From Bacteroidota bacterium (GTDB taxonomy: Bacteria; Bacteroidota; Bacteroidia; Chitinophagales; Saprospiraceae), in assembly GCA_963169455.1 (NCBI GenBank), contig CAUJDW010000040.1, positions 1 to 64,000 on the forward strand: 64,000 nt of DNA. Reading direction: 5' to 3'. Below, piece after piece: positions 3,776 to 58,075 of this stretch (position 1 is its first letter; each line of letters opens with the position of its first letter). The translations under genes were made by a program, and so were the position numbers. Below the pieces are notes generated by a model. That model was not told the origin of the DNA and made no database searches. It saw nothing but the letters and a program-made list of their open reading frames with translations.

Positions 3776-6442
3776 TTACCATCCAATCTGAATAAAAATA
3801 TTCGGCGTAAAGCCCAGCATGGGGCGGCGCAGCCCTACGGGCTCCATCGTTCCGGGATCGCTCTGGCCGGGCGCCAGGAAGAAATCGATGTCGAACAGGT
3901 TCGTCCGGCCGTAGGCATTGGCTGCCGAGAGGCCCAGTTTGCCGAGCCAGCGCTCCGTCTGGAAGCGGTAGTTGGCGGCCAGGTCGAGGCGGTGGTAGGC
4001 GGGCAGGCGGGCGTTGTTGGGGTGGGTGTACTGCAGGAAAAACACCTCCTGCCCGCTCTCCGGGTCGGTGCGGCTGCCCGTTCCGGACGGCAGGGTGTAG
4101 GGCCGCCCGCTGTTCAGATACCAGGTGGCCGACAGGTCCCAGTTTTTCAGCGCCAGGGTCTGCGTTAGAGTAAGGGTGTGCCGCTGGTCGGTATCGGTAA
4201 AAAAGGGCGCTCCGCCGTTGATGCCGGGAAACTGGTTGGTAGCCCCTGCCAGGGAATAGCCGATCCAGAGGGTGTATTTGTTCCAGCGCTGGCGCAGCAT
4301 GGCGTCGAAGCCAATGGCGCCGAGGCTGCCCATCTGCGTAAAGGGCGTTTCCAGCCCTTCCTCCTGCGCCAGCCGCAGGGATGAAAGGTTCCGGATGCCT
4401 TTTACATAAAAATCCATCTCCCAGAGGAATCGCCCCCGCTGGTAGCCGTAGCCGGCGGAAAAGTGGGCGGCGTCGAGCACGGGGAAAAGGTCGTCGGCCA
4501 TGACCCAGATCTGCTCGCCGGCGCCGAGGTCGCTGTAAAATGCGGGAATCTGGTACACGTACTGCCGGAAGAAGCCGCCGTTGGCCTGCAGGAAAAAGCT
4601 GTCGCCGAATGGATGCCAGCTCGCCGAAAAGCGGGGTAGGAGTGCAGGCTGCCGGAAAAGAACCTGCTCGCCTTGTAAAGTGGTGAAGCCTTCGTACCGC
4701 AAACCCATCGTCAGGAAGAACTTCGGCGGCAGCGCCAGCTGGTATTCGCCGTAGAGGATGCCCGTTCTGCCCAGCAGCGCCTTCTGGTTGCGCTCATACA
4801 CTTCCTGTTGGTTCTCGTTCTGGAAAAGGTAGTCCGTGCCCAGCCAGTTCACCACGGCCCCCGTTTTCAGGCGCTGCCCTTCGAAGATGTCCCATTCCTG
4901 GGCAAAGGTGAAGGAGGCGTCATTCAGGCTGCTCATGGCCTGAAAGCGGTTTTCGAATGGCCTGTCGGGGCGGAAGGAATAGCTGAATGCGTAATCGTTG
5001 CGGAAATTGCTGGCCACGGCTTTGACGACCGTTTTAAAAAGCTTGTTCCATTGCTGCGAATAGCGCGCGCTGAAGCCCGTGTTGGAGATGCGCAGCCGGT
5101 CGGTGGTGGAAAAACCGCCGCCGAGTTTGTACTGATAGTCGAACTGGTCGTTTCCGGCATACAGGCTGATGGCGACTTCGCTTTTGTCCGACGGCCTGAA
5201 TGCCCATTTGGCGTTGAAATCGCCATAGAAGAAGGTGGGCAGTGACGCCGTTTCCGCGCCGCCCTGGGCAACGGCGGTTTCGTTTTCGTACACCCTTCCC
5301 TTTGAAAAAACCTGGTTGAACAGCTTCTGGTACGTCGGGCTCGATATCCCGTCGTTGTAGGAACGCCTGAGGGCGAAAAAGAGGGTGGAGCGCCGGGGTT
5401 TGAGGGGGATTTCGGCATAGCCGTGCAGGTCGAGCAGGTTCATGCCCAGCCCGTACCGGGCTTTGTCGCCGTAGCCCGGTTTGCCTTTGATATCGATCAC
5501 GCCGGACACCCGCCCGCCGTATTCGGCGCCGAAGCTGCCGCGATAGACGTCCATGCTCTGGGCGGCAAAGGGGTTAAGCGAGGAGTACAGCCCGAAGAAA
5601 TGCCCGCTGTGGTAGATGGGGATGTCGTCCCAGAGCAGCAGGTTCTGGTCGGAAGCGCCGCCGCGGATGTTGAGGTTGGAGGCCGACTCGTCGGCCGTGC
5701 TGATGCCGGGCAGCAGTTGCAGGCTGCGCAGCAGGTCGGGCTCGCCCCAGCCGGGCAGGGTGGGGATGTCCTGCGGGGCGAAATGGTAGCGCCCGTCCTC
5801 GGCCCTTTCCATCATCTCCAGGGTGAATTCCCTGACCAGTATGCTGGCCAGTTCCGTGCCGGTGGGTTTCAGGCGGATGGTGAAGCAGGGTTTGTCCTTA
5901 AAATCGAAGGCTTTGAGCTGTTTATCTTCGTAGCCCAGGTAGCTGAATCGGAGGCGCGCGGTTTTGCCCAGGCTGGGTTTCCATTCGAAGTAGCCTTCTT
6001 CGTTGGTGTAACAGCCTTTTTCCGTCCCTTCCAAAGCGATATTGGCGTAGGGCAGGGGCTCGCCCGTGTTGCCGTCCACCACCCACCCGCAAATCCGGGC
6101 GGGTTCGGGCGGCAGCACCCGCAGCACGACATCCCGGGCATCGACTATGGTGAACCCCCATTCCGTTTCGGCCAGCAGCTGCTCAAGGCAGGCCTGCAGG
6201 CCAGGGCCTTCACTGATGATGGGAACCTGCACATTCGCCGCCTGGCCGGCGTCATAGGAAAAGGTGATGCCAAAACGGTTTTCCAGCTTTTGAAGGGCAT
6301 GGGGCAGGGGCTCGGTGCGCCCATCCTGCGCCTGCCCCGGCAGGGCAACGGACAGCACCAGGCTGGTGAGCACGAAAAGCCATGGCCAGCGAATGGCGGC
6401 CATGCTGAAGAGGTTCCTTTGTTTTTTGGATGGGATGGACAT
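3776..6442 (-). CDS. TonB-dependent outer membrane receptor with STN domain (FecA-like transducer)
   Basis: An 888-residue protein from an ATG at 6442 that precedes a clear signal peptide (hydrophobic segment ending LPGQAQ). In order it has a secretin/TonB short N-terminal (STN) domain at about 45-100, a carboxypeptidase-regulatory-like beta-sandwich (ICGWVVDGNTGEPLPYANIAL), a plug domain (NIRGGASDQNLLLWDDIPIY) and a 22-stranded-type barrel to the C-terminal IFIQIGW. An STN domain with a FecI/FecR pair upstream means this receptor probably senses its own ligand and signals through FecR to the sigma factor. The ligand is unknown. Longer in-frame starts exist up to 6484 but lie in front of the signal peptide. 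It is the third gene of the sigma-fecR-receptor unit on the minus strand. Confidence 0.88.
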   Translation of the reverse strand: MSIPSKKQRNLFSMAAIRWPWLFVLTSLVLSVALPGQAQDGRTEPLPHALQKLENRFGITFSYDAGQAANVQVPIISEGPGLQACLEQLLAETEWGFTIVDARDVVLRVLPPEPARICGWVVDGNTGEPLPYANIALEGTEKGCYTNEEGYFEWKPSLGKTARLRFSYLGYEDKQLKAFDFKDKPCFTIRLKPTGTELASILVREFTLEMMERAEDGRYHFAPQDIPTLPGWGEPDLLRSLQLLPGISTADESASNLNIRGGASDQNLLLWDDIPIYHSGHFFGLYSSLNPFAAQSMDVYRGSFGAEYGGRVSGVIDIKGKPGYGDKARYGLGMNLLDLHGYAEIPLKPRRSTLFFALRRSYNDGISSPTYQKLFNQVFSKGRVYENETAVAQGGAETASLPTFFYGDFNAKWAFRPSDKSEVAISLYAGNDQFDYQYKLGGGFSTTDRLRISNTGFSARYSQQWNKLFKTVVKAVASNFRNDYAFSYSFRPDRPFENRFQAMSSLNDASFTFAQEWDIFEGQRLKTGAVVNWLGTDYLFQNENQQEVYERNQKALLGRTGILYGEYQLALPPKFFLTMGLRYEGFTTLQGEQVLFRQPALLPRFSASWHPFGDSFFLQANGGFFRQYVYQIPAFYSDLGAGEQIWVMADDLFPVLDAAHFSAGYGYQRGRFLWEMDFYVKGIRNLSSLRLAQEEGLETPFTQMGSLGAIGFDAMLRQRWNKYTLWIGYSLAGATNQFPGINGGAPFFTDTDQRHTLTLTQTLALKNWDLSATWYLNSGRPYTLPSGTGSRTDPESGQEVFFLQYTHPNNARLPAYHRLDLAANYRFQTERWLGKLGLSAANAYGRTNLFDIDFFLAPGQSDPGTMEPVGLRRPMLGFTPNIFIQIGW

Positions 6443-46694: not shown

Positions 46695-48827
46695 ATGGCA
46701 AAGGAACCCCAAAAAGGCATCGATTTCAGAGCCGCAGGGCGCAAGACGCCAAAGGGGCTGAATTACCTTCTGGCCGTTGCCATCAATGAATACGAACACC
46801 ACAACAAACTTTCCAATTGCGTCCGCGATGCTGAGCAACTCGTAAAGGTGCTGCATGGCAGGTATGGCTTCCGCCCGGATGAAACCACCACCTTATTTGA
46901 CAAAGACGCCACAGCCGCTAACCTGTACAAAAACCTGGTGGAGCTGAGCAAAAAGGTAACACCACAGGATAATGTCATCATTTACTTCTCGGGCCACGGT
47001 TTTTTCGACCGCTCCGACCATACCGGCCACCTTGTTACGGTTGAGGCTTCAGAAGGTGCTGTCTGGCAATATTTCTCCAACGCCAACCTGGTCAACCGCA
47101 TCCGGGCCATTAACAGCTTCCACACTTTCCTTATCGTAGATAGCTGCTTTTCCGGCTCTTTATTTGCAAGCAAGGAAGTAAGCGCTACCCCCTTTGCCGA
47201 AAAGGTGGAGGGCCTGCCTTCTCGCTGGGCGCTGGCCGCCGGGCAGATCGAGACGGTGGAGGATGGGTTGCATGGGGACCATAGCCCTTTTGCTAAGGCG
47301 CTGCTGGCTTTCCTGGAAAAGAACAGCAGCCCCCTGGTGCCGGCTTCTGAGCTCATCCAGCATGTTAAGCGTGTAACTCCGCACAATGCCAGGCAAACGC
47401 CAGTTGGCGGGGTGCTGTTCAAGACCGGGGATGTGGGCGGGGAGTTTGTGTTTCACCTGAAGCAGGATGAGGTGGCTGCCTGGGCGGAGGCGAAGGCTGC
47501 GAATACTCTGGCTGGCTACCGGCAATTTTTGGAGGCTTTCCCCGAGAGTAACTATGTGCAGGAAGCGAGGAAACAAATTGCCGGGCTGGAAGAGGAAGCA
47601 GCCTGGAACCGTGCCAAAACCATAAACACCCTGGCTGCCTACGACGACTACCTCGACGCCTACCCTCAGGGGCGTTATGCCGAAGAAGCTGAAGAGCGCA
47701 TGGAGGCGCTGGATGAGGAAAAAGCCTGGAGGCAGGCGGTTGCCCGGGCTTCATTGGTTGGTTTTCGGAAATACCTGCGCGCTTATCCGGCAGGTAAATA
47801 TTCTGGGGAGGCCAGGGAGAGGATACAGGAGTTAAAAGTAGCGCCTGATCCGGAACCTGAGCCAACTATAACAAAAAAGGCGGAGGAGCCCCCGCCAAAA
47901 CCAACGCCTCCGCCCAGGGAAAAGCCGGCAGAAAAGAAGCAGCACATTTCCCTGAAGGATATGGTTTTCATAGAGGGTGGTTCTTTTGAGATGGGGGATT
48001 TATTCGGTGATGGAGAGGAGGATGAAAAGCCGGTTCATACCGTGAAATTAAGTGACTTCTATCTGTGCCGGTTTCAGGTTACGGTTGAAGAATTCAGCCG
48101 CTTTGTGGAGGCTACGGGCTACAAGACGGATGCCGAAAAAGGGGATGGTAGCTATTTCTGGGAAGGTCAGAAATGGATAAAGAAAGCCGGCATCAACTGG
48201 CGGCATGATGCTGCGGGTAAGCTGCGCTCGGCTGGCGAATACAACCACCCGGTGGTCCACGTCAGTTGGAATGACGCCATTGCCTATTGTAACTGGTTGA
48301 GCGAACAGCATGGCTATGAGAAAGTGTATTCTGTCAATGGCGGTACTGTTACTGCCAATTGGAACGCCAACGGCTACCGGCTGCCGACTGAGGCGGAATG
48401 GGAATATGCAGCGCGTAGCAGGGGAAAGAAATACAAATACGCCTGGGGCAACAGTAGTACTCCCCATGCTAATATTGCCGATGAAAGCGCTAAAAAGCAG
48501 TTTCCCGATTGGACCATTTGGGAAGGCTATGATGATGGATATGTTTATACCTCACCAGTTGGAAAGTTTGAACAGGGAGATTTGGGGTTATCGGATATGA
48601 TAGGCAACGTCTGGGAATGGTGTTGGGATTGGTACGATAAAAACTACTACGAGCAAAGCAAGAACAGCCGGGACCCCAAAGGCCCGGACAGCGGCTCCCC
48701 CCGGGTTCTTCGTGGCGGTTCGTGGTACTTCGTACCCGCCAACGCCCGTTGCGCCCTTCGCGACTTCAGCGTCCCGGGCGTCCGGAGCAGCGACCGCGGT
48801 TTTCGTCTTGCCAGGGCGGGTCGTTAG
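46695..48827 (+). CDS. DGR target 1: caspase-like protease fused to FGE/C-type-lectin variable domain
   Basis: A 710-residue protein. Residues about 18-255 are a caspase-like domain with His101 (YFSGHGFF) and Cys151 (IVDSCFSGSLF). Residues 260-380 hold three helical repeats of about 38 residues (each like TLAAYDDYLDAYPQGRYAEE), followed by a Pro/Glu/Lys linker (about 383-417) and a formylglycine-generating-enzyme-like domain (about 420-710; IEGGSFEMGD, GYRLPTEAEWEYAAR, GNVWEWCWDWY). The end (about residues 666-706) is variable repeat VR1, ending RLARAGR. In such proteins the variable domain is a ligand-binding C-type-lectin fold, so a protease effector with a changeable sensor is inferred. 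It is read in the same direction as the DGR cassette, and the stop is followed by a structured tail. Confidence 0.92.
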   Translation: MAKEPQKGIDFRAAGRKTPKGLNYLLAVAINEYEHHNKLSNCVRDAEQLVKVLHGRYGFRPDETTTLFDKDATAANLYKNLVELSKKVTPQDNVIIYFSGHGFFDRSDHTGHLVTVEASEGAVWQYFSNANLVNRIRAINSFHTFLIVDSCFSGSLFASKEVSATPFAEKVEGLPSRWALAAGQIETVEDGLHGDHSPFAKALLAFLEKNSSPLVPASELIQHVKRVTPHNARQTPVGGVLFKTGDVGGEFVFHLKQDEVAAWAEAKAANTLAGYRQFLEAFPESNYVQEARKQIAGLEEEAAWNRAKTINTLAAYDDYLDAYPQGRYAEEAEERMEALDEEKAWRQAVARASLVGFRKYLRAYPAGKYSGEARERIQELKVAPDPEPEPTITKKAEEPPPKPTPPPREKPAEKKQHISLKDMVFIEGGSFEMGDLFGDGEEDEKPVHTVKLSDFYLCRFQVTVEEFSRFVEATGYKTDAEKGDGSYFWEGQKWIKKAGINWRHDAAGKLRSAGEYNHPVVHVSWNDAIAYCNWLSEQHGYEKVYSVNGGTVTANWNANGYRLPTEAEWEYAARSRGKKYKYAWGNSSTPHANIADESAKKQFPDWTIWEGYDDGYVYTSPVGKFEQGDLGLSDMIGNVWEWCWDWYDKNYYEQSKNSRDPKGPDSGSPRVLRGGSWYFVPANARCALRDFSVPGVRSSDRGFRLARAGR
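48690..48813 (+). repeat. DGR variable repeat VR1
   Basis: 124 bp aligning without gaps to TR 51065-51188. It differs at 23 of the 32 TR adenines within 51074-51171 and at one other base (T to C in a Cys codon). Fifteen of the 16 adenine-containing codons are altered. The flanking RVLRGGSW and GFRLA codons, which carry no adenine, are unchanged. Confidence 0.95.
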
Positions 48828-48870
48828 TTTCTGACTTTTTTACCTTTTTACTAAGGAATCTGAGCACGGC

Positions 48871-48907
48871 ATGCCTCGCTTTTCCCAGAGAAGTGCGAGG
48901 CATTTTT
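48871..48907 (+). terminator. Hairpin with T-tract after VR1
   Basis: A 9-bp perfect stem (48871-48879 with 48895-48903) followed by TTTTT. It probably terminates target 1. DGR retrohoming in known systems uses a hairpin downstream of VR, so a second role is possible. Confidence 0.7.
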
Positions 48908-48922
48908 CTGTGGGCAGCGGAG

Positions 48923-48983
48923 CTTCCGGCTGGCCCCGCCCGGAAGCGCGTGCGCAGCCGCGCCGGGCGGGGCCAGTTGGAAG
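48923..48983. repeat. Long inverted repeat after VR1
   Basis: Arms of 21 bases (48923-48943, 48963-48983) with 19 pairs and a 19-base loop. The corresponding stem after VR2 (54440-54498) has different arm sequences that still pair. Confidence 0.75.
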
Positions 48984-49187
48984 CGAAGCGGTGGGCGGCC
49001 AGGGGAAAACGGATGCTCCTGAAAGCGCCCCCTGGGCCTGCGAAAAAATCCAGAGACAAGGCCCGTTTTTTACCATATATAGCCGAATCTTTTGCCATGA
49101 AATCCCGTAAAAGAGGGCATATATGGCCGGAGAAATAATTTCTGTGTAAAAGCCTGGCGCATATATACGGATTCTATGTGCTGAACC

Positions 49188-49685
49188 ATGCAACTCAGGA
49201 TATTCACCCTGCCTTTTGACGAGGAAACCGAGGGTTTCCCGGACGAGATCATTACGGAATTCTGCCTCAATAAAAAGGTGCTGGGCATGGAGGCACATTT
49301 CTTCCTGCGGGAGGGCAAGCCCTACTGGTCGGTGGCGGTGCATTACGAACTGGTGCTGCCAGAAACAGACAAGCTGCGGGAACTGGACGATAGCCAGAAA
49401 CTGCTGTTCCAGCGGCTGAAGGAATGGCGCAAGGAAACGGCTGCCAAAGAAGGGCTGCCGGCTTACCTGCTTGCCACCAATGCGCAGTTGATCCAGATGA
49501 TCCGCCTGCAATGCCGCACGCTGGAAAGCTTTAAGAACGTGAAAGGTTTTGGCAAGCAACGGGTGCAGAAATACGGCAAGCGCATCAATGAGCTGGTTAA
49601 AGGCTTTTATGAAGCGGAGGCGGCTAAACAGGCGGAGCGGCCGGAGGAACCGGCGGAGGACAAAAAAGAGGATATGCCCTATTAA
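49188..49685 (+). CDS. HRDC-domain DGR accessory protein
   Basis: A 165-residue protein. Residues about 72-140 form an HRDC helical domain (LLFQRLKEWRKETAAKEGLPAYLLATNAQ and GFGKQRVQKYGKRINELV), a nucleic-acid-binding fold known from RecQ helicases and RNase D and seen as an accessory in some DGRs. Residues 1-65 form an unrecognised beta-rich domain and the C-terminus is acidic. It begins the HRDC-Avd-RT unit, 11 bp before avd. Its likely role is handling of TR RNA or cDNA; this is inferred. Confidence 0.88.
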   Translation: MQLRIFTLPFDEETEGFPDEIITEFCLNKKVLGMEAHFFLREGKPYWSVAVHYELVLPETDKLRELDDSQKLLFQRLKEWRKETAAKEGLPAYLLATNAQLIQMIRLQCRTLESFKNVKGFGKQRVQKYGKRINELVKGFYEAEAAKQAERPEEPAEDKKEDMPY

Positions 49686-49696
49686 ATACTCAGGCG

Positions 49697-50044
49697 ATGG
49701 CAAAGGTTACGGATTATCCCCTGTACGAGCACTGGTACCGCACGCTGAACTGGATCCTGGACCGCTGCGACCGGATGCCTAAACACACCCGCTTTACGGT
49801 GAGCGGGCGCATCGCGCAATTGAGCATCGAGGTGGCGGAGTGGATCACGGAAGCCATCTACACCCGCGACCGGCGGGAGTTGCTTCGGGCGGTGAACAGG
49901 AACCTGGAAAAGCTGAGGCTCTATTTCCGGCTCTGCAAAGACCGGCAGTACCTGAGCCCGGGCCAGTACGAATACATCAGCCGGGAGGTCAACCAGGCGG
50001 GGGTGATGTGCGGCGGATGGTTAAAGGCTTCCGGCGATGCATAG
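49697..50044 (+). CDS. avd: Avd-type DGR accessory variability determinant (four-helix bundle)
   Basis: A 115-residue helical protein with the Avd/23S-rRNA-intervening-protein pattern: YPLYEHWYRTLNWILDRCDRMPKH, FTVSGRIAQLSIEVAEWITEAIY, and NRNLEKLRLYFRLCKDRQYLS. In studied DGRs, Avd forms a pentamer that binds the reverse transcriptase and TR RNA and is essential for cDNA synthesis. It overlaps the reverse transcriptase start by 8 bp, showing translational coupling. Confidence 0.93.
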   Translation: MAKVTDYPLYEHWYRTLNWILDRCDRMPKHTRFTVSGRIAQLSIEVAEWITEAIYTRDRRELLRAVNRNLEKLRLYFRLCKDRQYLSPGQYEYISREVNQAGVMCGGWLKASGDA

Positions 50045-51044
50045 GTACGGCGGGCTATTTGACGAGTTCACTTCTTTCCGGAACCTGCTGTCGGCTTACC
50101 GCAAGGCGCAGCGGGGGACGCGCCGCAACCAGGAAACAGCGGCCTTCTTTTTTTACCTGGAACAGGAGTTGTTCCGCCTGCAGGACGATTTGCGGGCGCT
50201 GCGCTACGAGCCGCAACCATATCACTACTTCAAGATATACGACCCCAAAGAGCGCACCATTTCGGTGGCGCCTTTTCGCGACCGGGTGGCGCACCACGCC
50301 CTGGTCAACATCCTTGAGCCAGTTTACGAGCGGTGTTTTATCTATGATTCCTACGCCACCCGCAAAGGCAAAGGCACGCATAAGGCTATTGAGCAGGCGC
50401 AGCGCTATCTGCGGGCGGAGGGCTGGTTCTTCAAAAGCGATATCGATAAGTATTTCGACAGTATCCGTCACAGCAAGTTGCTCGAGCTCATCCAGCGGAA
50501 AATCAAAGACACCCTCCTGCTGGACATCACCGAGCGGATCATCCGAAACGGCGGCGTGGACGGCGTAGGGCTGCCCATCGGCAACCTCACCAGCCAGTTT
50601 TTTGCCAACGTTTACCTCAATGGCTTCGACCATTTTGTAAAGGAGGAACTCCGGGTGCGGCGCTATATCCGGTACATGGATGATGTCGTGGAATTTTCAG
50701 CGGGCAAAGAACCACTGAAGGTCCACCGCAGGGCTATCGAAGCCTACCTGCATGAGGAGCTGGGCCTGCGGTTGAAACTCAAAGCCACCTTCATCAACTC
50801 CGCAGCCAATGGGCTGACGTTTCTTGGGCGGCGTATCTTCCCTCAATTGGTTCGCCATGCGGCGCCTAACCTGCGGCGCATGTCCCGCCGCATGGCGCAG
50901 CGGAAGGCGGCGTTGCACGCCGGCGAGATATCCGAAGAAACTTTCCTGCAAAGCATGAACAGCTACTGGGCGGTTTTGCAGTACGGGGGGAATATGGGGC
51001 TGAGAAAACACTTACTGGAACGCGGGCCTCCGGCCCGCGATTAA
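50037..51044 (+). CDS. DGR reverse transcriptase
   Basis: A 335-residue protein, typical DGR RT length. Fingers and palm motifs are present: KIYDPKERTISVAPFRDRVAHHAL, motif 3 SDIDKYFDSI (first catalytic Asp), motif 4 LPIGNLTSQ at 179-187 (the SQ form characteristic of DGR RTs, not the group II intron form), and the active site YMDD at 213-216. A short thumb follows. Such enzymes copy TR RNA with adenine-specific errors. The gene ends in a palindrome (51021-51039) and lies 20 bp before TR. It follows avd and HRDC in one operon. Confidence 0.97.
   Translation: MHRYGGLFDEFTSFRNLLSAYRKAQRGTRRNQETAAFFFYLEQELFRLQDDLRALRYEPQPYHYFKIYDPKERTISVAPFRDRVAHHALVNILEPVYERCFIYDSYATRKGKGTHKAIEQAQRYLRAEGWFFKSDIDKYFDSIRHSKLLELIQRKIKDTLLLDITERIIRNGGVDGVGLPIGNLTSQFFANVYLNGFDHFVKEELRVRRYIRYMDDVVEFSAGKEPLKVHRRAIEAYLHEELGLRLKLKATFINSAANGLTFLGRRIFPQLVRHAAPNLRRMSRRMAQRKAALHAGEISEETFLQSMNSYWAVLQYGGNMGLRKHLLERGPPARD
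51021..51039. repeat. GC palindrome at the end of the RT gene
   Basis: CGCGGGCC, three bases, GGCCCGCG: a perfect 8-bp stem encoding the last residues before the RT stop. The same palindrome occurs at 2210-2228. Confidence 0.7.
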
Positions 51045-51064: not shown

Positions 51065-51188
51065 AGCGGCTCCAACCGGGTTCTTCGTGGCGGTTCGTGG
51101 AACAACAAACCCGCCAACGCCCGTTGTGCCAATCGCAACAACAACAACCCGGACAACCGGAACAACAACAACGGTTTTCGTCTTGCCA
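51065..51188 (+). ncRNA. DGR template repeat (TR)
   Basis: A 124-bp template, non-coding in itself, that would read [11 protein letters not shown] then [13 protein letters not shown] and [13 protein letters not shown]. It has 32 adenines between 51074 and 51171, mostly as AAC codons; AAC can mutate to 15 amino acids without producing a stop. One AAA codon (51107-51109) could give TAA or TGA. It lies between the RT gene and target 2, so TR RNA could be made from the RT transcript or a nearby promoter. Confidence 0.96.
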
Positions 51189-51445
51189 ATACAGTCTCTT
51201 CTCCGGAATGCCGGCCTCTACGGATACCGGCAGCGTGAACGAACTGTCCAGCCGCTTGTCCTGCATGCTGCTTTGCGGCATCGAATACCAGCCTGGCCCT
51301 TTCCACTTGGTAGCTTTGGCGAAGAGCGGAGAGGGCTTTTTTTGATTTATGCTGATAAATTCCGGGGAAAAAGCGGCTAATTTCCCCTCCAAAACCATTT
51401 TTTTCCGATATTCCCCAGGTATTTCAAGCCCAACTTCCAAACCAA
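51189..51445 (+). other. DGR spacer with predicted TR-RNA terminator
   Basis: Contains a terminator-like hairpin (51296-51304 with 51328-51336, one GU pair) followed by seven Ts (51337-51343), and a short TGCCGG...CCGGCA hairpin around 51210-51226. The upstream region of target 2 follows. No gene was seen. Confidence 0.6.
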
Positions 51446-54343
51446 ATGGCGAAGATATTTATCAGCTCCACTTACCAGGACCTCGTCAGCCACAGGGAAG
51501 CCGTCGATAACATTCTGCGCCGGATGAAACAGGAATCCGTCATCATGGAATTCTTCGGCAGCCGCACTGATGAGGCTACTACGGTATGTGAAAAGGAGAT
51601 TCTGGATTCGGATATTGTCGTAGGTATCTATGCCCACCGTTATGGATGGATTCCTGAAGGAAGCGGCACATCCATTACCGAAATGGAGTTCGACTGGGCG
51701 AAGAAGCATAGAAAACAGATTCTATGTTACACCGTCCAGGAAAAAGGCTACCCCTGGCTTCCAGAATGGATTGATGAAGGCGAAACCAAACAAAAGCTCC
51801 AGGCCTTCAAAGCCAACAAAGCTGGAAAATTCGTCAAAAGCAACTTCACCACCCCCGAGAACCTGGCAGCCCAGGTTGCTGCCGACCTGAGCCGGACGAT
51901 CCGCGAAATGGAGCAGGCAACTCCCGTTCCTTCACCAGCCCCCGGCCCCCTGGGCCATCTGCCGCTTCCAATCGATATCCTCCCGCCGGACGATGCCCCG
52001 TTCGTCGGCCTCGACTACTTCACCCGCCGCGAGGCGCGGGTCTTTTTCGGCCGCAATAACGAGATCAGGGAATTGTACGATTTGATTACCCATACTTTTA
52101 CTCGCCTGGCGCTTCTTTACGGGCAGTCGGGCGTAGGCAAGTCCTCCCTGCTTTTTGCCGGGCTGCTGCCCCGCATGGAGCAGGATTGGGATATCCTTTC
52201 CCGGCGCCGTACCTACTCCAAAGGGCTGGCAAAGGATCTGGATGAGCTACTTGGAATGCCTCAAAAAAAGGAAAAGCGGCTGATCCTGCTCGACCAGGCG
52301 GAGGAGATGTTTACCAACCCCAATCCGGATATTCCGGATGAAAAGGAGGCCCTGGCCCAGAAGCTGGGAGAGTTGATCCCCGGCGATGGCGCCACCCGCA
52401 TCATCCTGAGTTTCCGCATGGAGTACCTGGCGCTGATAGAGGACCTGCTAAAAGGCCACAACCTGCCTTGCCTGGACCGCATGCTGCTCAAGCCTCTAAG
52501 CCGTGCAGGGATTAAGGAAGCTGTACAGGGGCCGGCTACGGACCCCGGACTGGCCAAGTACCACATAAAGTTGATGGATGTAGATGAGGGGGACCCGGAA
52601 GAAATACTAGCCAACCTAATCGCTACGGAACTGGGGCGGGATAAGGATGATTACGTGGCGCCTCTTCTCCAGGCTATCCTGCGCAAGATGTGGGACAAAG
52701 CGCCCCAATGCAAGGATAAAAAAGGGAATGCTTTTACCCTTTTCAATGAAGAGCTTTATCGCAGCGTCAAGAGTGACTCCATGGGCGAACTGCTGAAGGC
52801 CCAGTTGAAGGAACTGGCTGAAAAAGGCGAGGATTGGAAGAAGGTAGTCGACAGCGGATTGGCGCTGAGCCTGCTCAACAGCTTTATCACGGACGAGGTG
52901 ACGGCGGGAGAACGTACGGAGGCACAATTGCTTGAAGATTATCCCCACACCAAGCCGGATGTTATTTCCATTTGTGATGAGCTGAAATCCCTTTTCCTGC
53001 TTAGCAAGCCTTCAGAACGGGAGGCCCCCACCTTCCGCCTGGCTCACGACGCCCTGGCGCCGGTGATCCGCAAGCGGTTTAATGATTCCGATGCCCCTGG
53101 GCAACGCGCCTGGCGTATTCTGGAGAATAAGCTCGTTGATCTAAAGAAGGGGCAAACTCCTACTTTGTTGAATCTTGAAGACCTTCGGATCGTTGAAAGC
53201 GGCCTGAGTGGGATGCAGGTAGTCCCTGAATTGGACGATATTCTTCAGAGAAGTAGGCGGAAGCATGAGGAAGCGCAGTGGATGAAAGCTCGGTTAAATC
53301 AAAGGCTTTGTGATAACGCAGACCGGCAAATCAGGGCATATTTTTTGCAGCTGGATTATAAAGAGGCTTTAGAAACTTTGTATGAGGTGTTCGAATTAGA
53401 GGAACAACCTAAAATATTTTTTCATCACCTCCAGGAGGTGGTTTTCTGGCTTCAAGCTACCGGAAATTATAAAGAGGCCCTGGCTCCTTTAAAGATGCTC
53501 TTCAACCTCAAACTTGAAGGCATGGGCTGGCTTGAAGAAGATTACTCCCGCCTCCAGGATGGCGTCGGCGACTGGATGACAACGCTGAAGCGTTTGGATG
53601 AAGCGCACCTGGTTGAACTTCAGCATCGCTATTATCCGGAAATGGCGCCTATTCCAGGCGGCTCTTTTATGATGGGCGAGGATGATGGTAAACATCAGGT
53701 TACTGTAAGTAGCTTTTCCATGGCACGAACGCCCACCACTGTTTGGCAGTATGCTTTGTATTGCGCTGTTACCGGGAAGAATATTAAGGAACATGAACCA
53801 GGTTGGGGGCTGGTAGGCGATAATCCGATGATGAGGGTAAACTGGTTTGATGCGTTGGAATATGCGAACTGGCTTAGCCTGCAGCAAGGGTTAAACGAAT
53901 TCTATAGCAACAAAATGCCAAACTGGAAGGCCAATGGCTACAGGTTACCCACCGAAGCGGAATGGGAATATGCTGCTCGTGGCGGACAGGAAGGAAAGAA
54001 AAACAACTTCACTTACGCCGGCAGCAATGAGGTGGATGAGGTGGCCTGGACCGGGAACAATGCCCGAAGCCGTACCCAACCTGTGATGCAGAAGAAGCCT
54101 AATGAGTTGGGGCTGTACGATATGAGCGGTAATGTTTGGGAATGGTGTTGGGATTGGTTCGGTGATTATCCTTCTTCTGCCCAAGCAAATCCCCACGGCC
54201 CGGAATCCGGCTCCTACCGGGTTCTTCGTGGCGGTTCGTGGTACAGCGTACCCGCCGACGCCCGTTGTGCCTTTCGCAGCTACAGCTACCCGGACCGCCG
54301 GAACATCTTCAACGGTTTTCGTCTTGCCAGGGCGGGTCGTTAG
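51446..54343 (+). CDS. DGR target 2: DUF4062-STAND NTPase fused to FGE/C-type-lectin variable domain
   Basis: A 965-residue protein. Residues 1-105 match DUF4062, a TIR-like N-terminal domain (KIFISSTYQDLVSHREAVDN, GIYAHRYGW). Residues about 195-500 form a STAND/NACHT-type NTPase with Walker A GQSGVGKS (226-233) and Walker B LILLDQAEE (279-287), followed by a winged-helix/helical region and helical repeats to about 725. A formylglycine-generating-enzyme-like domain (about 730-965; IPGGSFMMGE, GYRLPTEAEWEYAARGG, GNVWEWCWDWFG) ends with variable repeat VR2. STAND proteins oligomerise on ligand recognition, so the variable domain is the likely sensor. It is in the same direction as RT, 401 bp after it. 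Confidence 0.92.
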   Translation: MAKIFISSTYQDLVSHREAVDNILRRMKQESVIMEFFGSRTDEATTVCEKEILDSDIVVGIYAHRYGWIPEGSGTSITEMEFDWAKKHRKQILCYTVQEKGYPWLPEWIDEGETKQKLQAFKANKAGKFVKSNFTTPENLAAQVAADLSRTIREMEQATPVPSPAPGPLGHLPLPIDILPPDDAPFVGLDYFTRREARVFFGRNNEIRELYDLITHTFTRLALLYGQSGVGKSSLLFAGLLPRMEQDWDILSRRRTYSKGLAKDLDELLGMPQKKEKRLILLDQAEEMFTNPNPDIPDEKEALAQKLGELIPGDGATRIILSFRMEYLALIEDLLKGHNLPCLDRMLLKPLSRAGIKEAVQGPATDPGLAKYHIKLMDVDEGDPEEILANLIATELGRDKDDYVAPLLQAILRKMWDKAPQCKDKKGNAFTLFNEELYRSVKSDSMGELLKAQLKELAEKGEDWKKVVDSGLALSLLNSFITDEVTAGERTEAQLLEDYPHTKPDVISICDELKSLFLLSKPSEREAPTFRLAHDALAPVIRKRFNDSDAPGQRAWRILENKLVDLKKGQTPTLLNLEDLRIVESGLSGMQVVPELDDILQRSRRKHEEAQWMKARLNQRLCDNADRQIRAYFLQLDYKEALETLYEVFELEEQPKIFFHHLQEVVFWLQATGNYKEALAPLKMLFNLKLEGMGWLEEDYSRLQDGVGDWMTTLKRLDEAHLVELQHRYYPEMAPIPGGSFMMGEDDGKHQVTVSSFSMARTPTTVWQYALYCAVTGKNIKEHEPGWGLVGDNPMMRVNWFDALEYANWLSLQQGLNEFYSNKMPNWKANGYRLPTEAEWEYAARGGQEGKKNNFTYAGSNEVDEVAWTGNNARSRTQPVMQKKPNELGLYDMSGNVWEWCWDWFGDYPSSAQANPHGPESGSYRVLRGGSWYSVPADARCAFRSYSYPDRRNIFNGFRLARAGR
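54208..54329 (+). repeat. DGR variable repeat VR2
   Basis: 122 bp aligning without gaps to TR 51067-51188. All 17 differences are at adenines of TR (32 available). Thirteen of 16 adenine-containing codons changed. The three Asn/Asp codons left as in TR lie in the second half. Confidence 0.95.
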
Positions 54344-54387
54344 CTTTTAGGCTTTCTTACCTTTTTACAAAGGAATGTGAGCACGGC

Positions 54388-54424
54388 ATGCCTCGCTTTT
54401 CCCAGGCAAGAGCGAGGCATTTTT
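54388..54424 (+). terminator. Hairpin with T-tract after VR2
   Basis: A 10-bp perfect stem (54388-54397 with 54411-54420) followed by TTTTT, equivalent to 48871-48907 after VR1. Confidence 0.7.
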
Positions 54425-54439
54425 CTTTGGGCAGCGGAG

Positions 54440-54498
54440 CTTCCGGTTGCCCGGCCCGGAAGCGCGTGCGTAGCCGCGCCGGGCAGGGCAATAGGAAG
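54440..54498. repeat. Long inverted repeat after VR2
   Basis: Arms of 20 bases (54440-54459, 54479-54498) with three non-Watson-Crick positions. Relative to 48923-48983 both arms changed together. Confidence 0.75.
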
Positions 54499-54807
54499 CG
54501 GAGCGGGGGGCGCATTTTTCTGGATTTGCTGGATGGGGTTTCCCGGCATATATAGGCAGGAATTACGCACGCAGAGTCCATATATATGGCCACAAAAAAC
54601 CTTTGCAAGTAAAATGGGCAGCTATATATGCGGATCCTATGCAGCTATATATGCTTGGTGTGCATACTGCCTGCAAAACATGCCCCCTCACTCCAACCTA
54701 TTCCTAAACCGCCTCATCCCCTCATTCCTTGCCCTCTTCTTCTTATACCGCATCGTCATCGATATATCCGCATGGTTCGCCTGGTCCTGCACGCTCGAGG
54801 AGTCCAA

Positions 54808-56283: not shown

Positions 56284-56767
56284 CTTGTTATATTTGGGTT
56301 CAGAATTATTGCTGTGAGGGGCGTTCCGGGTATGTCAAATTTTGAGGAAGGTAGTGTTAATGAGCTGGAGGTAAATGTCTTGAATGTATATTGATTTTTA
56401 TAAATTTATGCTTCTTCTTTTCCTGGGGCAATGATTTTTATCAATTGAGGTGTCCTGCTGGCTTAAAGGCTTATTGATTGCCCTATATCTTCCGGCCAGG
56501 ATAAGCGGGAGCGGCGCTTGAAAAAAACGAAGCCGAAAAAAAAGGGTGTTTTCGCATGCTGCGAAAACACCCTTTGAAAAAACTTGTACCCGGGACGGGA
56601 CCTCACAAACCAACTACCCATACTCCCCTGTACGCTCCAGTGGGCATATAACCTGCTGTTCAGCAGTATCCTACCAATTACCAGAAGTTGCTCACGATCA
56701 CACTCGGCCAACAATTCCGGCTCCAAAAACGGCTCCTTTTGTATCTTCCCAGAAAAAAAGGAAAAGC
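56284..56767. other. Divergent region at the left end of the mobile element
   Basis: AT-rich DNA containing a perfect 16-bp hairpin (56541-56556 with 56560-56575, 3-base loop). The integrase-proximal attachment site would be expected near here, but no repeat matching another part of the window was found. No gene is supported. Confidence 0.5.
56541..56575. terminator. Perfect 16-bp hairpin
   Basis: Arms AAAGGGTGTTTTCGCA and TGCGAAAACACCCTTT around a TGC loop, upstream of the integrase gene. It may be a terminator or a recombination-related site. Confidence 0.55.
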
Positions 56768-58075
56768 ATGAAAAAATTACCCACCACGCGCTATTTCCGA
56801 AAGCCTGATGGTAGGATAATACTGCGCTATCGTTGGAGGACAAACCGGGTCCAGCAATCTACTCAGCTTTGTATCGATGCTAAATATTGGGATGAAAAAG
56901 CCCAGCGGCCGGTTCGAGGCGCCAGGCAACCGGAACTATTGCGCGCCAGGCACGTCCTGGACGAACTGGCCAAGATCTGCGATGATATTTTTATCGAGTT
57001 TGGATACGGCAATATAGAGCCGGCCGAATTTAAGGAGGAACTGCAGCAGCGGGCATTGTCCGCCGGGCTGCTACACTCTACAGGTTGGGTTTCCTCTAAA
57101 CAGGAGGCTGAGGCGGTCTCATTTATGCGGTGGGTGGATATGTATATCGAGCTCCAGCGCCCGAAGGTGAAGGGGCAGACCATGAAAAAGTACGGGACGT
57201 TCAAGGGCTTCCTGAAGGACTTTACCGCCCATAGAGGCCGCGAGATAAGTTTTGAAGACCTTGGTAAGCCGCTGCGAAATGAGATTGTCCGGTTCTTCAG
57301 AAATTACAAAGGCGGTACCCAGGTTTCGCACTGCAATAAGCTGCTGCAGCAATTAAGGCAATTTGCGGCTGAAGCCTATCCCATGCATCATGACAATAAT
57401 ACTTTCCTTTCTCAGAAATGGGCAATTGCTAACCGGATGCCAAAACAACGGCCCGTTTATCTTTCTCCTTTTGAGGTCCATGCTATTTCTGGCCTGGATT
57501 TGAAAGGGAAGGAAGCCGAAGCCCGCGACCTGTTCCTGGTCGGGCTGTATACCGGACAAAGGATTTCGGATTATTGGCGCTATCGCCCCGAACATTTCCG
57601 GAATGGCTGCCTGGATATCCACCAGGTGAAAGGCAAGGGTGAAAGGGTGGTTGTCCCATTGGATATTTTCCCCCAGGTTACCCCGATTCTGGAGCGGTAC
57701 AACTGGGCCTCTCCTTGGTTGGCTAATGACCTGAGTTCAACCGCCGCGATCCTCAACCGGGCTATTAAGGAAATCTGTAAGAAGGCGGGGATTGATGAAG
57801 CTGTTACCAGGTATATACAGATTTCTGACCTCCCTCCGGCGCCGGAAACCGCTGAGAAATGGAACTACATAGGTAGCCATACTGCCCGGCGGTCCTTTGC
57901 TACCATTCTTTACAATAGGGGGTACACTTTGGCGGAAATCATGCCTATGACGGGGCATGAGAAGGAGTCGACGCTTATGAAGTACATTGGAACAACTAAG
58001 GAGGAAAACGCCAGGCGGGTGCAAGCTAAGGCGCTTAGAGAACAAGGGGATAGCCCGATGAGGAAAGCGGAGTGA
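56768..58075 (+). CDS. Tyrosine-type site-specific recombinase (integrase)
   Basis: A 435-residue protein. An N-terminal arm-type DNA-binding domain (about 1-100, RIILRYRWRTNRVQQSTQL) is followed by a SAM-like core-binding domain (about 120-230) and the catalytic domain with Arg (GLYTGQRISDYW), the HxxR pair (HTARRSFATIL), GHEKESTLMKYIG and the final Tyr in KYIG. This is the Bacteroidota integrative-element type. It is the first gene of the right-hand mobile element. The start at 56768 was chosen because upstream codons are unlike the family. Confidence 0.92.
   Translation: MKKLPTTRYFRKPDGRIILRYRWRTNRVQQSTQLCIDAKYWDEKAQRPVRGARQPELLRARHVLDELAKICDDIFIEFGYGNIEPAEFKEELQQRALSAGLLHSTGWVSSKQEAEAVSFMRWVDMYIELQRPKVKGQTMKKYGTFKGFLKDFTAHRGREISFEDLGKPLRNEIVRFFRNYKGGTQVSHCNKLLQQLRQFAAEAYPMHHDNNTFLSQKWAIANRMPKQRPVYLSPFEVHAISGLDLKGKEAEARDLFLVGLYTGQRISDYWRYRPEHFRNGCLDIHQVKGKGERVVVPLDIFPQVTPILERYNWASPWLANDLSSTAAILNRAIKEICKKAGIDEAVTRYIQISDLPPAPETAEKWNYIGSHTARRSFATILYNRGYTLAEIMPMTGHEKESTLMKYIGTTKEENARRVQAKALREQGDSPMRKAE

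Follow-up and report, generated by a model that had tools for sequence, protein, structure and literature searches.

The closest described systems include the STAND/FGE diversity-generating retroelements (DGRs) DGR 6 and DGR 3 of Thiohalocapsa PB-PSB1 (PMC10907252), which have two targets per DGR and a STAND NTPase centre. Targets of the Thiohalocapsa DGRs carry the variable repeat (VR) in a C-terminal FGE/CLec domain, and some have effector-like N termini (PMC10907252). Sensing of invaders by STAND/FGE DGR targets is a hypothesis in these published systems too (PMC10907252). The Treponema denticola TvpA DGR (2y3c; PMC4891356) combines an FGE-type CLec variable protein with an HRDC accessory gene and remote targets. 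The Bordetella phage BPP-1 DGR has a reverse transcriptase (RT) and Avd, adenine mutagenesis, a hairpin after the VR, and a structured RNA 3' of the template repeat (TR). The locus described here is alike in each of these features. It lies in a window of 64,000 nucleotides, which is the whole stretch of DNA that was analyzed. The repeat VR2 in this window is very probably a variable repeat of a chromosomal DGR that was rewritten from the TR by the mechanism described below, in targets that would serve as diversified sensors.

Gene content and relatives of the DGR

The gene set was observed directly, and all parts lie on the + strand in the order caspase-FGE target with VR1, HRDC, Avd, RT, TR, and DUF4062-nSTAND1-FGE target with VR2. 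Target gene 1 (46695–48827; 710 aa) encodes a caspase-like peptidase (PF00656) joined to an FGE-sulfatase domain (PF03781) that holds VR1. Two accessory proteins follow. The HRDC-domain protein (49188–49685) is identified by PF00570, and Avd (49697–50044; PF22296 bAvd) scores 98.8 bits against NCBIfam NF033474 DivGenRetAVD, above the cutoff of 80. The RT (50037–51044; 335 aa; PF00078) has the IGNLTSQ and YMDD motifs and matches PHROG 1423 with an E value of 1e-110. Its assignment as a DGR-type RT next to a TR uses this match, the motifs, and RT relatives that have TR/VR pairs, not a tree. The RT, Avd, and HRDC genes are all intact. The TR (51067–51188; 33 adenines) lies between the RT and target gene 2 (51446–54343; 965 aa), which encodes DUF4062 (PF13271), an nSTAND1 NTPase (PF20703), and an FGE-sulfatase/CLec domain (PF03781) with VR2. 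The sequence of the cassette indicates a complete DGR of the standard known kind in a bacterium related to Saprospiraceae. A tyrosine recombinase gene of the phage-integrase family is located downstream of the DGR at 56546–58075, and no tRNA genes were found in the 64-kb window.

The nearest RTs found are from Saprospiraceae, followed by Cyanobacteria and Bacteroidota. The closest relatives by RT identity are the Saprospiraceae loci L040 (75%), L041 (70%), L042 (66%), and L043 (Phaeodactylibacter xiamenensis, 61%), and the viral contigs searched gave distant RTs only (31–36% identity). L040–L043 have one to three VRs each with changes almost solely at adenines, and their TR is likewise placed after the RT. 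A similar layout and adenine-directed VRs are also found in some 20 further loci. L042 and L043 share HRDC proteins and caspase-FGE targets with the window DGR.

Template and variable repeats

VR2 (54208–54329, + strand) lies at the 3' terminus of the DUF4062-nSTAND1-FGE target and was compared with the TR over 122 bp in a gap-free alignment. The pattern was observed directly: there are 17 mismatches, and all 17 fall at template adenines (10 A>T, 6 A>G, and 1 A>C). The chance of 17/17 mismatches on 33 adenines among 122 positions is 4.5e-12 (hypergeometric). The preliminary description had claimed that VR2 differs from the TR at adenines only, and these data bear it out. Its 17 changes are correct, and its total of 32 adenines is raised to 33 because the last TR base (51188) had been left out. 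VR2 and TR are identical at 89/89 non-adenine sites. Nine of the changes are at codon position 1, eight are at position 2, and none is at position 3; no stop codons are created. The threshold used for a DGR TR/VR pair was at least 75% of mismatches on TR adenines, and the values are 17/17 for VR2, 23/24 for VR1, and 17/19 for VR3, the repeat of a third target on another contig.

The TR and VRs are related copies, as ordinary duplication followed by point mutation would produce. That origin is extremely improbable for VR2, with every mismatch at an adenine (P as above), none at a third codon position, and 100% identity elsewhere. Adenine deamination or an error-prone DNA polymerase acting in place of reverse transcription would also account for changes that fall at adenines. 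Deamination of adenine would yield A>G only. In VR2 A>T exceeds A>G, the spectra of further VRs are mixed as well, and a DGR RT and Avd adjoin the TR. The change of A to G, T, and C thus argues against deamination, and we give this second origin almost no credence. The base that follows an adenine affects its change. In the TR and relatives L040–L043 combined, 72% of adenines before A, 54% before C, and 6% before G are changed, and A>C makes up 19% of the changes before A and 3% of those before C. Adenine-directed mutagenic retrohoming from a common TR is well supported. The template-driven retrohoming put forward earlier is upheld by the full RT/Avd/TR/VR cassette, the changes of A alone to G, T, or C, the CLec/FGE target, and the similar relatives.

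By analogy with BPP-1, the TR RNA and its folded 3' tail would be copied by an RT-Avd complex, and the RT would misincorporate opposite template adenines. The cDNA would then replace the matching 3' end of the target genes up to an IMH-like boundary. A single TR would serve the two local genes (VR1 and VR2), and it may have served, or may still serve, VR3 in trans.

VR1 (48692–48813, + strand) lies at the 3' end of target gene 1 and has 23 of its 24 mismatches at TR adenines; the single non-adenine difference is T>C at 51127 (TR coordinate). The third target was observed directly on contig C121, distant from the cassette, and is a TIR-nSTAND1-FGE gene whose VR3 has 17 adenine changes and 2 others. 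The C121 locus is without HRDC, Avd, RT, and TR. It matches the window at 48990–49101 before HRDC (83%), at 51184–51323 after the TR (91%), and across 53930–54806, a stretch that includes VR2 (81–96%). These matches indicate that the C121 locus is a duplicate of the window DGR minus its core, so VR3 was presumably written either before the core was lost or in trans. Between the flanks, the bodies of target 2 and the C121 target are about 30–60% alike when compared in 50-bp steps upstream of the final 300 bp. Downstream of targets 2 and 3, the non-coding flank (54330–54680 versus 3862–4212 of L006, the C121 locus) is 91% identical over 351 bp, whereas similarity is much lower over most of the gene bodies. 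The divergent bodies between conserved flanks suggest that the sensor genes were apparently exchanged or diverged. A segment of about 60 bp (L006 717–777) stands at the site of the absent HRDC-Avd-RT-TR. L006 1–610 is a citrate-synthase-like fragment joined via C and G runs to the DGR duplicate and is probably an assembly chimera.

Contig C47 contains a decayed second TR plus its 3' RNA, which form an in-frame fusion with an unrelated ORF at 5909–6484 of L007, the C47 locus. The C47 match (50275–50349) was considered as a fourth VR and rejected, with template adenines retained and TR-like sequence following it. Duplicated incomplete DGR loci of a similar sort are known in Thiohalocapsa, where in PB-PSB1, as here, loci minus the RT or TR have targets that still match another TR (PMC10907252).

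The decayed TR and the RT-less duplicate are evidence that some parts of the system have decayed in this genome, and the non-adenine differences, one in VR1 and two in VR3, mean that not all parts of the repeats are freshly copied. Both observations would fit VR2 as a frozen relic, rewritten by the DGR in the past in a system that is now silent. We consider this unlikely, because RT, Avd, and HRDC are intact and VR2 matches the TR at all 89 non-adenine sites. That identity indicates that little time, on the scale of point mutation, has passed since VR2 was copied, and we infer that the system may be active at present.

Of the 17 codons altered in VR1 or VR2, 14 differ between the two repeats, as do 9 of the 12 codons that are altered in both, in agreement with the earlier statement that the two differ at most diversified codons. 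Independent rewriting was simulated with the frequencies of the bases that eight VRs from other systems have at codon positions 1 and 2. In the 3' part (22 adenines of 51131–51188), VR1 equals VR2 at 7 adenines compared to 6.9 expected. In the 5' third (11 adenines of 51074–51117), VR2 equals VR3 at 9 (expected 3.8, P 0.0012), all three VRs are alike at 6 (expected 1.6, P 0.0007), and VR1 equals VR2 at 6 (expected 3.8, P 0.13); the split between the two parts lies in a natural gap but was picked after seeing the data, and the P values are uncorrected. The claim that VR1 and VR2 were rewritten independently therefore stands for the 3' two-thirds of the repeat and is not clear for the 5' third, which has the VR2/VR3 agreement at 9/11. 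Independent rewriting does not by itself account for the excess of 5' sharing, which requires an added contribution from common descent of that end or from selection.

We read these data as rewriting that often stops short of the 5' end and leaves inherited states there. In a more explicit version, VR2 took over its 5' part from another target (VR3 or an ancestor), by joint inheritance or by recombination, and recent rewriting from the TR was confined to the 3' part. We regard this version as a serious possibility and place it slightly below even. It is consistent with the VR2/VR3 agreement in the 5' third, the 81–96% identity of the target 2 and 3 flanks, and the position of every non-adenine difference of VR1 and VR3 at or before 51127. 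In BPP-1, 5' cDNA integration requires just short identity and may happen inside the VR (PMC3240598). Against this version, the numbers are small, the split was chosen afterwards, and the 5'–3' polarity of sharing was not found as a general rule in the other two-VR systems tested. The alternative to inheritance is selection that favors identical residues, which would mimic the pattern; Y and V are common to all three VRs.

Sequences 3' of the template and variable repeats

A structured RNA of about 150 nt (51189–51341, + strand) lies directly 3' of the TR and is supported by a covariance-model match and by folds in relatives. Its predicted layout is a closing stem that pairs the TR end with GUCC, an inner hairpin, a second hairpin, and a long hairpin with a UGGUAG loop. 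The post-TR sequence is kept in C121, C47, and the relatives, with comparable stems despite changing sequence. The covariance model was built from five cyanobacterial DGRs only and has 43 pairs, 19 with double changes. In a search of 326 kb its hit in the window, 51189–51341, scored 42.7 bits (E 1.1e-9) and began precisely where the TR ends; L041 and the C47 remnant gave further matches. C121, L040, L042, and L043 gave no covariance-model match, though their folds look alike by eye. A run over the whole genome reported the C47 copy alone and missed the window copy, possibly through loss in the search tool's first look. No Rfam family matched the post-TR RNA.

The Sp region of the BPP-1 template RNA recruits RT-Avd and primes cDNA (PMC12875486). 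By analogy, the post-TR RNA is probably the counterpart of Sp. There is about an even chance that its conservation from Cyanobacteria to Bacteroidota marks a 3' module for recognition and priming that is general to the template RNAs of cellular DGRs and has no counterpart in Rfam. A conserved post-TR RNA provides a handle to find and study cellular DGRs.

The VR ends in CGGTTTTCGTCTTGCCA and is followed by GGGCGGGTCG. In target gene 2, GGGCGGGTCG and the stop codon occupy 54330–54343 (+ strand), and this stretch is the same after all three VRs and different after the TR, as expected of an IMH-like boundary. The motif TTACCTTTTTAC then leads into a terminator-like hairpin predicted at 54388–54420 (together 54357–54420, + strand). 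Exact TTACCTTTTTAC matches in the window occur only after VR1 (48840) and VR2 (54357). A second, GC-rich hairpin is predicted at 54439–54499 (+ strand). The copy of this downstream module after VR1 (48814–48997, + strand) is 89% identical to 54330–54512. The module of about 180 bp is 84–94% identical after VR1, VR2, and VR3, which exceeds most coding sequence before the VR, and it was not found in the genome beyond these three sites. Relatives have a strong hairpin at a like place after the VR with a different sequence.

The BPP-1 hairpin lies 4–34 bp after the VR and has a 7–10 bp stem and a GRNA loop. In contrast, the first strong hairpin here begins about 58 bp after VR2, has a longer stem and another loop, and may be a terminator. 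The post-VR hairpins were dropped as BPP-1-type target elements on this misfit of distance, stem, and loop. Terminator function is sufficient for the first hairpin, so no target-element role is claimed for it. The GC-only 14-bp element at the VR 3' end of BPP-1 is absent here and is not a general DGR criterion.

Target domains and comparison with known DGRs

The nearest solved relative of the VR2-bearing domain by sequence is T. denticola TvpA (E 1.8e-31), followed by formylglycine-generating enzymes. A structure model of the FGE domain from nine locus sequences is of moderate quality (mean pLDDT 67), with the VR stretch poorly modeled (pLDDT <50). The fold match was observed directly: the model matches TvpA with Z 17.5 (rmsd 3.6, 208 aligned), and its matches also include FGE and the DGR proteins Mtd and TaqVP, the last two with Z 9.2. 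The VR thus lies in a domain of the CLec fold, with its changes distributed 9/8/0 over the codon positions and no stops. An nSTAND1 part with a VR-bearing FGE C terminus is found in both target 2 and the C121 target, the arrangement of a STAND/FGE sensor. PADLOC matched only the caspase part of the targets.

The altered residues belong to an FGE/CLec domain that is joined to caspase, DUF4062-STAND, or TIR-STAND parts. On this basis, the most likely role of the target products is that of diversified sensors in defense proteins of the NLR-like or caspase type. One template in a single genome has very probably diversified the sensor domains on three defense-type outputs: caspase, DUF4062-STAND, and TIR-STAND. 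As a compact natural example, the locus could help to address whether DGRs provide bacteria with an anticipatory immune repertoire and whether targets that lack an RT of their own continue to be rewritten in trans.

The system appears to resemble closely the 'antigen sensor' DGRs with STAND/FGE targets (Doré et al. 2024), a group defined in part by RTs of clade 5 (5D) of the DGR RT tree; it is likened to them by its targets and layout. It differs from the Thiohalocapsa DGRs in its Saprospiraceae-related host, in the single TR for a caspase-FGE and a DUF4062-nSTAND1-FGE target, and in having HRDC plus Avd. In T. denticola HRDC lies between TR and RT (PMC4891356), whereas here Avd is present in addition and the TR follows the RT. 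The fusion of its targets to caspase or STAND parts also sets the present DGR apart from the TvpA DGR. Unlike BPP-1, the DGR described here is chromosomal, has its TR after the RT, and has several targets.
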